Below are positions 3,330-61,323 of a stretch of 64,000 bases of DNA, in pieces (the first letter of the stretch is position 1; each line of letters opens with the position of its first letter). The translations under genes were made by a program, and so were the position numbers. The notes beneath the pieces were generated by a model. That model did no database searches and had not been told where the DNA came from. It worked only from the letters and a program-made list of their open reading frames with translations. Where the stretch lies: NCBI RefSeq assembly GCF_900128525.1, contig NZ_FQTQ01000048.1, forward strand, positions 1-64,000, read 5' to 3'. Source of the stretch: a methanotrophic endosymbiont of Bathymodiolus puteoserpentis (Logatchev). GTDB lineage: Bacteria > Pseudomonadota > Gammaproteobacteria > Methylococcales > Methylomonadaceae.

Positions 3330-4258
3330 TGAAAACTCGTTTCTAGAATACGCCACACTAACTGTTCAAAACTCAATCCAGCAGCTTTTGCAGCCATGGG
3401 TACCAAGCTATGATCAGTCATACCAGGAACCGTATTTACTTCAATTAATTGAGCCTGTCCCCGCTCATCAATAAATATATCCACACGACCCCAGCCCGTC
3501 ACCCCTAATACAGCACAAGCTTCCAAGGACAAGCGAACCAGTTCAGCCTCAAGCGCATCGCTTAACCCTGCCGGACAATGGTACCGTGTTGTATCAGCTC
3601 GATACTTGGCATCAAAATCATAAAAAGTATTAGGTGTTTCCAAGCGTATAATAGGTAATCCTTCGCCATTTAAAACAGCAACCGTATATTCTTCACCTTT
3701 AACCCAAGTTTCAGCATAAACATCACATTGATATTGATCAGCCAACTGCCAGGCATCAAGCAGTTCTTGCTTAGTTTCCGCCCGACTCATCCCTAAACTA
3801 GACCCTTCCTGAGCTGGCTTAACAATAACAGGAAAACCTAACTCAGCTATACAGCGCTCTATATCATGCTCGTTTTGCAATAAAACCGATGGTGGTGTCG
3901 GTAAGCCCGCCCCCTGCCAACACAACTTAGTACGTAACTTATCCATACTTAAAGCAGAAGCCAAAACACCACTACCTGTATAAGGTAAAGCTAAAGTATC
4001 TAGTACTGCTTGCAATACACCATCTTCACCACCACGCCCGTGTATAACATTGAATACGCGATCAAATAAAGCATCACCCAAAGCCTCTAACACATTGGTT
4101 TTGACATCAATAACATAAGCATCTACTTTATTATCTAATAAAGCCTGATACACTGCATTGCCACTGTTTAAAGAAATTTCTCTCTCTGCAGCGGTACCGC
4201 CTATCAATACCGCAACACGACCAAAATCTTTGGCATCTTTTGTAAAGACAGGCTTCAT
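3326..4258 (-). CDS. ddl: D-alanine--D-alanine ligase
   Basis: ATP-grasp ligase joining two D-alanines in the cytoplasm for the peptidoglycan pentapeptide. Recognisable segments are VAVLIGGTAAEREISL at the N-terminus, HGRGGEDG, TGSGVLASALSMDK, the ATP-binding PVIVKPAQEGSSLG and the metal/ligand-binding EVNTVPGMTDHSLVP near the C-terminus. The start is set at the ATG (MKPVFTKD) that overlaps the murB stop as ATGA. The reading frame extends eight codons further upstream, but that would run deeper into murB. It is the DdlB-type enzyme of the dcw cluster. Confidence 0.97.
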   Translation of the reverse strand: MKPVFTKDAKDFGRVAVLIGGTAAEREISLNSGNAVYQALLDNKVDAYVIDVKTNVLEALGDALFDRVFNVIHGRGGEDGVLQAVLDTLALPYTGSGVLASALSMDKLRTKLCWQGAGLPTPPSVLLQNEHDIERCIAELGFPVIVKPAQEGSSLGMSRAETKQELLDAWQLADQYQCDVYAETWVKGEEYTVAVLNGEGLPIIRLETPNTFYDFDAKYRADTTRYHCPAGLSDALEAELVRLSLEACAVLGVTGWGRVDIFIDERGQAQLIEVNTVPGMTDHSLVPMAAKAAGLSFEQLVWRILETSFQ

Positions 4259-17835: not shown

Positions 17836-17880
17836 AAAAAAGCCCATAAAATGCGTCACACAAACACACTTTATGAGCTT
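17836..17880 (-). terminator. Intrinsic terminator of the HvfA-like gene
   Basis: Arms at 17840-17850 and 17870-17880 pair with one mismatch (AAGCNCATAAA type). On the minus strand the second arm runs straight into TTTTTTATT. It lies about 75 bases beyond the stop of the small Cys-rich protein gene, so it probably ends that transcript and insulates the dcw promoter. Confidence 0.7.
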
Positions 17881-17956
17881 CAAATTACATCGCCAGATAT
17901 TATCCTAGCAATACTCAGGTAATTCGCAATATAAATGTTGCGAACAGCTTTACACC

Positions 17957-18325
17957 TTATTGCATACTACTTCCACATTTTCCTTCGCCGCATTTTCCTT
18001 CCATCGCTTTTGCATCAGATTTTTTCTGCCCTGGCATTGGCTTATTACCTGCACATTTACCTTCCGCTGTTTTCTCCAAAGCACCTGGAGGCGTCATACT
18101 GGCTCCACATTTTCCTTCTCCACAAGCACCTGCTTTCATTTTCATATTGCCTTGCTTAGACTTACCAGCTTCTGCAACCTGCATATAACCATCTGCTAAT
18201 TCAGTCAACGTAAATGGATTACTTTCAGCACCAACAAACTCCTCTGCTTGCACCGCTGTTACAGCCAAACCTGAAAATAATGTCGTGCCTACTGCAATTG
18301 CTAAAGGTGATTTTTTTATACTCAT
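17957..18325 (-). CDS. HvfA-like secreted EGKCG-repeat peptide, putative RiPP metallophore precursor
   Basis: A 122-residue protein with a clear Sec signal (MSIKKSPLAIAVGTTLFSGLAVTAVQA region, cleavage likely after QAEE or AQA). The conserved-looking leader NPFTLTELADGYMQVAE follows, then a low-complexity Gly/Lys/Cys tail. The tail contains the pentapeptide EGKCG three times, two of them joined as EGKCGEGKCG, plus variants EGKCA and GACGEGKCG. This matches the architecture of HvfA-family precursors, in which an MNIO enzyme (HvfB) and partner HvfC convert EGKCG cysteines to oxazolone-thioamides that bind copper. No MNIO, HvfC or DoxX-like gene is adjacent. The gene lies 35 bases after mgtE with a good GAGGA ribosome site and may be cotranscribed with it. 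Modification and metal binding are inferred from family similarity only. Confidence 0.8.
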   Translation of the reverse strand: MSIKKSPLAIAVGTTLFSGLAVTAVQAEEFVGAESNPFTLTELADGYMQVAEAGKSKQGNMKMKAGACGEGKCGASMTPPGALEKTAEGKCAGNKPMPGQKKSDAKAMEGKCGEGKCGSSMQ

Positions 18326-18360
18326 TTTTATTTCCTCAATATAGTTTTTTAAAGACAGGT

Positions 18361-19713
18361 TTAAGCTAACAAGAAAATTGTCGCCAATCCTAAAAAGGAC
18401 ATAAAACCAATCACATCAGTAACGGTAGTTAATAACACACCACCCGCTAATGCAGGGTCTATGCCTCTTTTTTGTAAGAACAAAGGAATCATAACCCCCG
18501 CAAAAGCTGCACAAGTTAAATTAATAATCATTGCCCCACCTAGCATCATGCCTAACGGCATATCCGAGAACCAGGCCGCCGCAATCAAAGCAACAACTGT
18601 AGACCAAACAATACCATTTAATGCACCAACAGCTAACTCCTTAAACAAAAAGGACATCGCGTTTGCTGAACTAATTTGATGCAATGCCAAGCCACGAATG
18701 ACTAGTGTCAAGGTTTGACTACCGGCGATCCCTCCCATACTCGCAACCACCGGCATCAGCACGGCTAAAGCAACAATTTCATCAATTGTCGCCTCAAACA
18801 AACCAATAACCCATGATGCCAAAAATGCGGTAAATAAATTTACTCCCAACCAGACAGCTCGACGCCTAGCACTAACAATCACAGGGGAGAATAAATCATG
18901 CTCCTCATCTAATCCGGCCGAGCTCAAAATAGCATGATCTGCTTCCTCACGAATAACATCAACTACATCATCAACAGTAATTCGACCTACCAAGATACCC
19001 TCTTCATCGACTACCGCAGCCGATAAAATATCCCTATGTTCAAAAATAGTAGCCACTTCAGAGACCGGCATATTCAAGGGAATTGCTGCAATAGAAGTAT
19101 CTATTACTTTAGACACAACCATAAGTGGGTCACTAGTCAAAATGGTAGCTGCAGGTAATATACCTTGGTAATGATTCCCTCGATCAACAACAAACAAGCT
19201 ATCCATATTTCCTGTCATTTTCTTTTGCACGCGCAATAAGCGCAATACAGCATCTATGGTAACATCCGCTCTTACTGTCAAAACATCCAGCGTCATTAAG
19301 CCACCTGCGGTATGCCCATCATAGGCAAGCGCGGCTTCTAGACGACTATCTTTCTTTTTCCTTAAGACTCTGTCTCTAACTTCAGCAGAAAAATCACCCA
19401 CTAAATCAGCTAAATCTCTTGGTGTTAATTCATTTGCAGCAACCACTAAGTCCTGAACAGAAGTATGCTCAATAAGACCCGTTCGCACTTCTCCTTGAAG
19501 AGCCACGAGTATCTGCCCCTTAACTTCGGGCGCAACAATGCTCCATAACCGATACCTATACTCTGTAGGTAATGACCTAAGTAATAAAGCAATTTCAGCC
19601 GGATACAAACTTAACAAATGATTACGCGCATCATAAAGTGCACCATCATCTAAGTCCTTCATAATCTGTTCTAAATGTATATCAGAATGATCTTGCGGTC
19701 TATTTACTTGCAT
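18361..19713 (-). CDS. mgtE: Magnesium transporter MgtE
   Basis: Inner-membrane divalent-cation channel of the MgtE/SLC41 family. Order: an N-terminal superhelical domain (LYDARNHLLSLYPAEIALLLRSLP to about residue 125), two CBS domains (about 130-255, including HTAGGLMT and VGRITVDDVVDVIRE), then about five membrane helices. The pore helix reads VASMGGIAGSQT, where many members have GGNAGSQ. The length of 450 is normal. It lies 42 bases after rapZ and just before the HvfA-like gene. Confidence 0.95.
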   Translation of the reverse strand: MQVNRPQDHSDIHLEQIMKDLDDGALYDARNHLLSLYPAEIALLLRSLPTEYRYRLWSIVAPEVKGQILVALQGEVRTGLIEHTSVQDLVVAANELTPRDLADLVGDFSAEVRDRVLRKKKDSRLEAALAYDGHTAGGLMTLDVLTVRADVTIDAVLRLLRVQKKMTGNMDSLFVVDRGNHYQGILPAATILTSDPLMVVSKVIDTSIAAIPLNMPVSEVATIFEHRDILSAAVVDEEGILVGRITVDDVVDVIREEADHAILSSAGLDEEHDLFSPVIVSARRRAVWLGVNLFTAFLASWVIGLFEATIDEIVALAVLMPVVASMGGIAGSQTLTLVIRGLALHQISSANAMSFLFKELAVGALNGIVWSTVVALIAAAWFSDMPLGMMLGGAMIINLTCAAFAGVMIPLFLQKRGIDPALAGGVLLTTVTDVIGFMSFLGLATIFLLA

Positions 19714-19755: not shown

Positions 19756-20613
19756 TTACGATAACTCTCGATGCCTGATAATGACATTGGATCCCTTGCT
19801 CTGAAAGTATCGGGCAAGACTATCCACTAAAAATACCGAGCGATGCTGCCCACCGGTACAACCGACAGCAACCGTTAAATAACTACGATTTTCCTTTTCA
19901 AAGCGTGGAATCCAGCGCTCTAAAAGACCTGAAATATCTTGAAAAAACTCTGTAACTATTGATTCTGAATTTAAGAAATCTATTACCGGCTGATCTTTAC
20001 CAGTGAACCCTCGAAGCTTTGGATTCCAATACGGGTTAGGTAAGCAGCGCGCATCAAAGACAAAATCAGCATCCAAAGGCAAACCATGTTTAAAACCAAA
20101 GGATTGCATTTGTATAGAAATTTTTTGCTGCGAACCTTCTTGCACATACCCTCTGATCAGCTCTCTCAATTGATGATAATGCGTACGACTCGTATCAACC
20201 ACTAAATCAGCGCATTTTGCAACAGACTTAAGCATTTCCTTCTCAATTTTAATCGCCTCTTTCAAAGGCAAATTTAAATCAGTTAGTGGGTGCCGTCGCC
20301 TTGTTTCACTATAACGCTTAAGTAAGACTTCAGCTTCTGCCTGCATATAAATCACATCACAATAAATACCTTGCGCTCTTATTAAAGCCAACTTTTCTGC
20401 AAAAGCATATAAGCTTTCACTGTGGTTCCGCGCATCAATCCCAATGGCGGTTTTGTTATATGTTTTAGGATCTTGCTTCATCACATTAGTGACAAAATCA
20501 TCGAGTAGCGTAATCGGCAAATTATCTATACAGTAAAACCCGCAATCCTCAAGCGTATCTAAAGCAATACTTTTCCCTGAGCCAGACAAGCCAGTTAAAA
20601 TCAATAGTTTCAT
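19756..20613 (-). CDS. rapZ: RNase adapter protein RapZ (YvcJ family nucleotide-binding protein)
   Basis: P-loop protein which, in E. coli, senses GlcN6P and directs RNase E to the small RNA GlmZ, controlling GlmS and so amino-sugar supply. The Walker A motif GLSGSGKSIAL is at the N-terminus. The C-terminal domain shows FGFKHGLPLDADFVFDARCLPNPYW and the signature VGCTGGQHRSVFLV. I use the ATG beginning MKLLILTGLSG; an upstream in-frame GTG would add six residues. It follows hpf directly: ptsN, which sits between them in E. coli, is absent, and so is npr. Confidence 0.95.
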   Translation of the reverse strand: MKLLILTGLSGSGKSIALDTLEDCGFYCIDNLPITLLDDFVTNVMKQDPKTYNKTAIGIDARNHSESLYAFAEKLALIRAQGIYCDVIYMQAEAEVLLKRYSETRRRHPLTDLNLPLKEAIKIEKEMLKSVAKCADLVVDTSRTHYHQLRELIRGYVQEGSQQKISIQMQSFGFKHGLPLDADFVFDARCLPNPYWNPKLRGFTGKDQPVIDFLNSESIVTEFFQDISGLLERWIPRFEKENRSYLTVAVGCTGGQHRSVFLVDSLARYFQSKGSNVIIRHRELS

Positions 20614-20736
20614 AGTCTCAATAGGGAACACTACCCTTCAGGCAAAAAAATAACCTTACTATATTCTTATTTAAACTCAACTCTGTATGCATGGCTTTGC
20701 TATTTACTAATATTAAAGCCACGCATACAGCACAAA

Positions 20737-21030
20737 TTAACCGCGGCGTGCTTGAATTTTTTCTTTATGTTTAATAATTTGACGGTCTAATTTATCAACC
20801 ATATTATCAATAGCTGTATACATATTGTCTTGAACATCATCAGCAAATAATGTTGCACCACTAATTTGCACTGTCGCTTCTGCTTTTTGTTCTAATTTTT
20901 CTACTGTCAAAATAACATGCACATCAGTTACATTATCAAAATGACGTTTCAATTTACCAATTTTTTCTTCTACGTGTTGCTTCATTGCTTCTGTTACTTC
21001 AACATGATGACCCGTTATGCTAACTTGCAT
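20737..21030 (-). CDS. hpf: Ribosome hibernation-promoting factor, short form
   Basis: Small protein that binds the 30S subunit and helps form inactive 100S ribosomes in stationary phase. At 97 residues it is a short HPF without the long-HPF dimerisation domain. It starts MQVSITGHHVEVTEAMK and includes HFDNVTDVHVILTVEK and AIDNMVDKLDRQI, all typical. An AGGAG ribosome site precedes the ATG. A minus-strand TATAAT lies in the rpoN-hpf gap, but its -35 partner is poor, so a separate promoter is only possible. Confidence 0.96.
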   Translation of the reverse strand: MQVSITGHHVEVTEAMKQHVEEKIGKLKRHFDNVTDVHVILTVEKLEQKAEATVQISGATLFADDVQDNMYTAIDNMVDKLDRQIIKHKEKIQARRG

Positions 21031-61159: not shown

Positions 61160-61323
61160 TCTTTTCTCCAAATAATTCCGGACATTCCGGAAGGGTTACG
61201 CCTCCACCTATCCCGACTAGAAACTAGTTTTATTAAGAACCAGCACCCAACTAACCGTGTCGATAGATGTGAGTATTAAGTAAATGAACTTATCTTTATA
61301 CCATATTTACTTTTTTACAACAA
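61160..61323 (-). promoter_or_regulatory. rpsB promoter and structured leader
   Basis: Minus-strand TTGTTG (61318-61323) and TATAAA (61295-61300) with a 17-base spacer make a plausible sigma-70 promoter. The resulting leader of about 130 bases contains a small TTCCGG/CCGGAA hairpin just upstream of the ribosome site (around 61177-61193). In gammaproteobacteria rpsB-tsf is autoregulated by S2 through its leader, so this leader may do the same; that is inference. Confidence 0.5.

Follow-up and report, generated by a model that had tools for sequence, protein, structure and literature searches.

The locus analysed here raises the question of how an apparently secreted peptide with EGKCG repeats could be matured when no modifying enzyme is encoded beside it. 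The window, i.e. the whole stretch of 64,000 nucleotides examined from a methanotrophic endosymbiont of Bathymodiolus puteoserpentis, contains no MNIO (PF05114), DUF2063 (PF09836) or DoxX gene, because the sole genome matches to the first two are on contig C83 and the sole DoxX match is on contig C190. An earlier note on this DNA was thus correct in calling the gene locally orphan, with no MNIO, HvfC-like or DoxX gene nearby. We consider it quite likely that the gene encodes an exported EGKCG (captophorin) RiPP precursor, which would be modified in trans by a solitary HvfBC pair and would bind periplasmic copper. The gene and its parts are located as follows.

17957-18325, minus strand: hvfA-family (EGKCG) precursor, type A, 122 aa, ATG start
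18245-18325, minus strand: putative Sec-type signal peptide, residues 1-27, ending AVQA (by inspection of the window and of 16 genus copies)
18173-18220, minus strand: conserved leader motif NPFTLTELADGYMQVA, residues 36-51
17975-18124, minus strand: Cys core, residues 68-117, with AGACG, EGKCG, EGKCA, EGKCG and EGKCG

The signal-leader-repeat layout described in the earlier note is visible by inspection: the protein runs from MSIKK to AVQA, continues with NPFTLTELADGYMQVA and ends in the Cys repeats. A residue count likewise bears out EGKCG three times plus variants in this 122-residue ORF, the variants being one EGKCA and one AGACG, with five Cys in total. When the protein's own residues were shuffled 200,000 times, at least one EGKCG appeared in 232 shuffles and three appeared in none. 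The protein scores 29.8 bits against NF050137 (KCGExKCG_twice, the NCBIfam HvfA-family domain model), above the cut-off of 19.5, and 37.3 bits against the HvfA equivalog NF050188, below its cut-off of 95. By these model scores type A is a member of the wider HvfA family and not an HvfA equivalog, so the family assignment made earlier stands although the equivalog model is missed. Type A has no match in Pfam, where these precursors are without any model.

Conservation of type A was assessed in a set of 18 genomes of the genus, the endosymbiont's own included, which form part of a larger set of 41. An intact type A gene is found in 16 of the 18, although two of these copies (G009, G015) have four Cys rather than five. 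The median dN/dS is 0.15 (107 of 120 genus pairs, with dS of 0-2.5, many near saturation), and the gene therefore looks selected as a protein. These observations bear on the idea that type A is what remains of a lost operon and is itself in decay. Decay of such precursors does occur, as in G015, where a broken precursor frame precedes HvfB; nevertheless, the frame is intact in the window, as it is in the other copies of the genus, and the dN/dS value does not fit a gene in decay. Loss of type A in the two remaining genomes (G005, G007) was rejected, both having assembly gaps at the place. We thus disfavour a decaying leftover and regard it as very improbable.

The search for MNIO and DUF2063 genes that the earlier note had proposed was carried out over the whole 3.23-Mb genome and returned one PF05114 and one PF09836 match, adjacent to each other on C83. 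The first is an HvfB of 283 aa (449.9 bits against NF003818, cut-off 360) and the second an HvfC of 251 aa (283.6 bits against NF050145, cut-off 142), in frames that overlap by 20 bases. With both above their cut-offs, a genome lacking the maturation enzyme was rejected, and the suggestion that enzymes might act in trans gains a single HvfB and a single HvfC on another contig. The C83 enzyme falls below the cut-offs for the bufferin maturase BufB (NF050167, 281.9 bits, cut-off 310) and the methanobactin enzyme MbnB (TIGR04159, 57.6 bits, cut-off 325); its best solved relative is 3bww. The genes flanking the pair read from their translations as a DAHP synthase, thiG and an asparaginase-like gene, which we take them to be. 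A small, overlooked precursor beside the enzymes was also considered and rejected, since listing all frames from 20 aa upwards revealed none. The C83 HvfB carries Arg16-Arg17 and Asp251-Phe252. These match the Arg-Arg and Asp-Phe described for enzymes of the EGKCG class at FonB sites 15/16 and 249/250 (PMC13097082), and we count it in that class.

The earlier note had also proposed a search for further EGKCG peptides, and with the HvfA-family model at E <= 1 these genes were found at three places in the genome, the two in addition to type A being:

contig C62: type B precursor, 244 aa, Met-rich, beside sucCD and hemW
contig C75: type C precursor, 102 aa, lipoprotein-like, in which TGC close to the N-terminus resembles a lipobox by inspection

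In the genome search type C scores 15.3 bits, below the cut-off, whereas the whole protein scores 22.0 bits, above it; type C is 43% identical to type A where aligned. A leader of the form N.F...EL..GYM is common to types A, B and C. Three precursors is a lower bound, because the family model misses some: the HvfB-linked precursors of G020, G021 and G032 were detected only by a frame scan.

In the mechanism that we propose, the endosymbiont, a Methyloprofundus-like methanotroph, would read type A as the last gene behind mgtE. HvfC would recognise the signal peptide and the NPF...GYM leader of the precursor in the cytoplasm, and HvfB would then oxidise up to five Cys of the EGKCG-like motifs to 5-thiooxazoles, with an expected loss of about 20 Da. 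After Sec export and cleavage of the signal, modified type A would bind copper in the periplasm. The same HvfB-HvfC pair might also serve type B, the Met-rich precursor at sucCD, and the lipoprotein-like type C. Several published results are pertinent to these steps. The earlier note had named an oxazolone-thioamide as the product; this has been superseded by the assignment of a 5-thiooxazole (PMC13097082, PMC13419390). FonBC is reported to tolerate Ala at motif positions 3 and 5 (PMC13097082), making GACG and EGKCA plausible substrates, and HvfA without its signal is reported to be poorly modified (PMC13419390). Copper binding is described for 5-thiooxazole peptides and tied to copper detoxification (PMC13097082), is described for such peptides also in PMC12636315, and a lipidated EGKCG peptide was produced from Neisseria dentiae genes (PMC12636315). 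The endosymbiont genome itself encodes an AMO/PmoA-family protein (PF02461, 423.9 bits), which fits a copper-dependent methanotroph.

Separation of precursors and enzymes is conserved in the genus. Within the 41-genome set, an EGKCG match is present in 32 genomes, MNIO in 37 and DUF2063 in 38. Among the 18 genomes of the genus, type B is as widespread as type A (16 genomes) and directly adjoins sucD in 12 of its 16 occurrences, type C is found in seven genomes (8 copies), and MNIO and DUF2063 are each present in 17. The GYM-leader pattern is retained in every genus copy, i.e. 16 of type A, 16 of type B and 8 of type C. Primary HvfB loci of the genus number 17; at 15 of them there is no adjacent precursor, while G004 has an intact one and G015 a broken one. 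A precursor-profile search (E <= 1, frames of at least 25 aa) of 19 HvfB loci matched only L094, L106, L127 and L138; all 19 include the usual upstream place, and the downstream side ends at the contig end in, e.g., L128, L134 and L140. The broken frame of G015 (L138, about 3787-4081, plus strand) is directly upstream of HvfB and has an intact leader. A total of 43 precursors was counted, leaving out a family-model match at a contig end in G003 (C103, L091), where no frame passed the scan.

Two of the matching loci, L106 (G009) and L127 (G002), are second HvfB-HvfC-precursor clusters with EGGCNG/EGGCNA repeats. Neither of their precursors has the GYM leader (0/2), and their HvfB, which is divergent, carries Asp-Cys where the primary enzyme carries Asp-Phe. 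This suggests that each enzyme is paired with a leader of its own. Weak second DUF2063 matches were seen in G003 (C139, 969-1190) and G008 (C1, 2552006-2552212), at 45.3 and 44.9 bits, and these genomes have one MNIO each.

The same distribution bears on whether type A might be left unmodified and act as a plain thiol metal sponge, with HvfBC acting on nothing but type B, type C or the two together. Cys-Gly repeats in the free state would be able to bind soft metals, and there are genomes in which a type-A-like gene occurs with no MNIO match: G023, from another genus of the family and listed as 98% complete, has neither MNIO nor DUF2063 matches, and G042, for which completeness is not given, has no MNIO match. 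Such peptides may therefore exist unmodified, an option that Antoine et al. leave open (PMC12452194) in a survey where 67 of 2583 Buf_EGKCG genomes are without MNIO. On the other hand, the leader pattern is kept in all type A copies, the median dN/dS is low, and MNIO and DUF2063 are maintained in 17 of the 18 genomes even though an adjacent substrate is missing at 15 of the 17 primary loci. G013, the sole genus genome without HvfB, looks like an assembly gap, because the neighbouring genes for DAHP synthase and thiG are absent too; it was accordingly rejected as a genus genome with a precursor and no enzyme. The possibility raised in the earlier note, that the peptide works unmodified, is thus weakened by the retained enzymes and by the one leader motif shared among types A, B and C, and it keeps a small share of probability: we judge it unlikely.

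The arrangement outside the genus was compared as well. In the 23 genomes of the 41-genome set that lie outside it there are 25 MNIO matches, 16 of which the tree or the Arg-Arg and Asp-Phe sites place in the HvfB class (the enzyme of G030 has Asp-Leu instead of Asp-Phe). All 16 HvfB-class loci have an adjacent precursor, 12 found by frame scan and those of G024, G027, G034 and G039 by profile. The other nine MNIO loci belong to other classes: four were placed by tree, and in the other five neither the Arg-Arg/Asp-Phe residues nor a match to the precursor profile was found. This classification supports a linked state outside the genus. In the HvfB tree the genus loci form a group of modest support (85/78), and the linked relative G024 is its neighbour (94/91). 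These sequence relationships are most simply read as an older, linked operon that broke up in this genus. Within the genus, a single clade comprises the linked locus of G004, the broken one of G015 and the unlinked one of G017. Among the linked precursors compared, that of G004 is the closest to type C, while type B is closest to those of other genera. Since the linked precursor of G004 resembles type C, re-linkage in the G004-G015 branch may be an alternative to break-up.

Relatives of type A are also found outside the genus. At L049, L051, L052, L053 and L157 there is no mgtE in the surrounding DNA that was available; L047, where the sequence begins 164 bases upstream of the relative, is left out of this count. 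G041, G043, G044 and G045 (L047, L051, L052 and L053) retain the linked operon besides the type-A relative, and G044 has coordinates identical to G019. The G041 relative (L047, 165-2775) lies beside arsenic-resistance-like genes, presumably ACR3, ArsC and ArsR from their translations. In G023, the EGKCG gene (L157, 3918-4301, minus strand) is beside a sigma-70-family (ECF-like) gene. In G037, from the same order, a 276-aa protein (L173, 3031-3861, minus strand) has a GYM leader and EGKCG repeats joined to Cu-oxidase_2. It scores 26.4 bits with PF07731 (multicopper oxidase, cupredoxin-like) and 24.3 bits with NF050137, an apparent fusion of a copper-peptide region with a copper-protein fold.

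The position of type A next to mgtE is the remaining aspect of the locus that requires explanation. The elements around the gene in the window are:

17839-17881, minus strand: terminator-like hairpin 3' of hvfA (-24.3 kcal/mol, z -7.59, equalled by 0 of 200 shuffles)
18331-18337, minus strand: GAGGAAA, a ribosome-binding-like site in the mgtE-hvfA gap, by inspection
18361-19713, minus strand: mgtE, upstream of hvfA and probably co-transcribed with it
19756-20631, minus strand: rapZ, upstream neighbour, named from its translation and in the earlier note
20737-21030, minus strand: hpf, upstream neighbour, named from its translation

Other same-strand frames upstream are presumably rpoN and lptB, judging from their translations, and the genes downstream of type A, named from translations or in the earlier note, are taken to be mraZ and rsmH. 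The end of mgtE is 35 bases from the start codon of type A, and TGAGGAA recurs by inspection in this gap in several genus copies. The link to mgtE pointed out earlier is confirmed and is kept across the genus: wherever type A is present (16 of 16 genomes), the gene follows the mgtE orthologue on the same strand at a distance of 17-70 bases, with no terminator-like site in the gap by the criterion of our script. In G010, mgtE is split over two frames. A hairpin followed by a T run is present downstream of type A in 14 of the 16 copies, the window's own among them; of the two without it, L099 has only 210 bases on that side. The terminator scan of the window region found 2 sites against 2.6 expected from shuffles, so that the terminator is unremarkable by that scan alone, whereas the fold of the single hairpin is remarkable. 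The promoter scan gave 7 sites against 9.6 expected from shuffles. The sole Rfam match in the window is a t44 RNA (RF00127, 68 bits), far from hvfA at 61195-61291 on the minus strand.

The position next to mgtE could mean that type A takes part, with MgtE, in magnesium or general envelope metal handling rather than in copper buffering. Short, terminator-free gaps next to an mgtE orthologue in all 16 genomes speak for this. However, the five extra-genus relatives mentioned above are found away from mgtE, no magnesium riboswitch is present in the window at the Rfam gathering threshold, and mraZ, on the other side of type A, is nearly as well kept (14 of 16), so that inherited synteny may explain the link. 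The thiooxazole peptides reported in PMC13097082 and PMC12636315 bind copper. At mgtE paralogues (5 loci, 34-49% identity), no EGKCG motif was found within the available flanks; a further partial mgtE copy in G014 (71%, L194) is cut off at its downstream end. Conservation of the mgtE link thus does not support the metal function that the earlier note had read into it, and we regard a magnesium-related role as quite improbable.

Copper binding by a peptide modified in trans, the reading we favour, has precedents in several known systems. The hvfABC(X) oxazolin system of Haemophilus influenzae (PMC13419390) likewise combines an EGKCG-repeat precursor, exported there and predicted to be exported here, with HvfB and HvfC equivalogs. 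By contrast, type A is not beside the enzymes and DoxX is unlinked here; H. influenzae HvfA, as described there, has three AEGKCGEGKCG units, whereas type A has its five Cys in variant motifs, and one enzyme pair would here serve three precursor genes. Fontiphorin and the other captophorins (fonABC, PMC13097082) share the EGKCG motif class and an HvfB with the Arg-Arg and Asp-Phe sites, but fon is reported as one compact cluster, while the genes of the endosymbiont are dispersed and modification is predicted. The lipidated oxazolin NedA of Neisseria dentiae (PMC12636315) resembles the lipoprotein-like type C, although NedA was co-expressed with the NedB and NedC that belong to it and type C is unlinked to the enzymes. 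Methanobactin (MbnA/MbnB/MbnC) is also a copper peptide of methanotrophs made by an MNIO enzyme and a partner; the MbnB score of the C83 enzyme given above sets the two apart, and methanobactin precursors are described as being without a signal peptide (PMC12452194).

The closest precedent is the Buf_EGKCG/oxazolin precursors of PMC12452194. There, this kind of peptide, stand-alone precursors, several precursors per MNIO-PME1 pair and the idea of modification in trans are already in print, as is the general arrangement. The present case differs from those in extending over a whole genus, where the precursors sit at fixed places, type A stays next to mgtE, and one linked copy is broken. Neither the scattering at constant positions throughout a genus nor the pairing with mgtE was found in the open-licence literature that was searched.

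More tentatively, and with somewhat less than even confidence, we suggest that hvfABC came apart in this genus and that HvfBC might have become a stand-alone, multi-substrate maturase. Copper peptides would then be supplied from three separately controlled places, types A and B being free in the periplasm and type C lipid-anchored, and type A on the mgtE transcript could constitute a standing copper buffer for the heavy demand of particulate methane monooxygenase.

Whether one MNIO-PME1 pair acts on several related precursors, or others stay unmodified, was left undecided by Antoine et al. (PMC12452194). The genus is a clean case for that question, having one primary enzyme pair and two to three precursors at fixed places in most genomes; relatives with a linked operon serve for comparison, and in one genome the linked copy is broken. 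Stand-alone precursors of this type escape genome mining that is confined to enzyme neighbourhoods. The arrangement also bears on how gammaproteobacterial methanotrophs, with their high need for copper, hold free copper in check.
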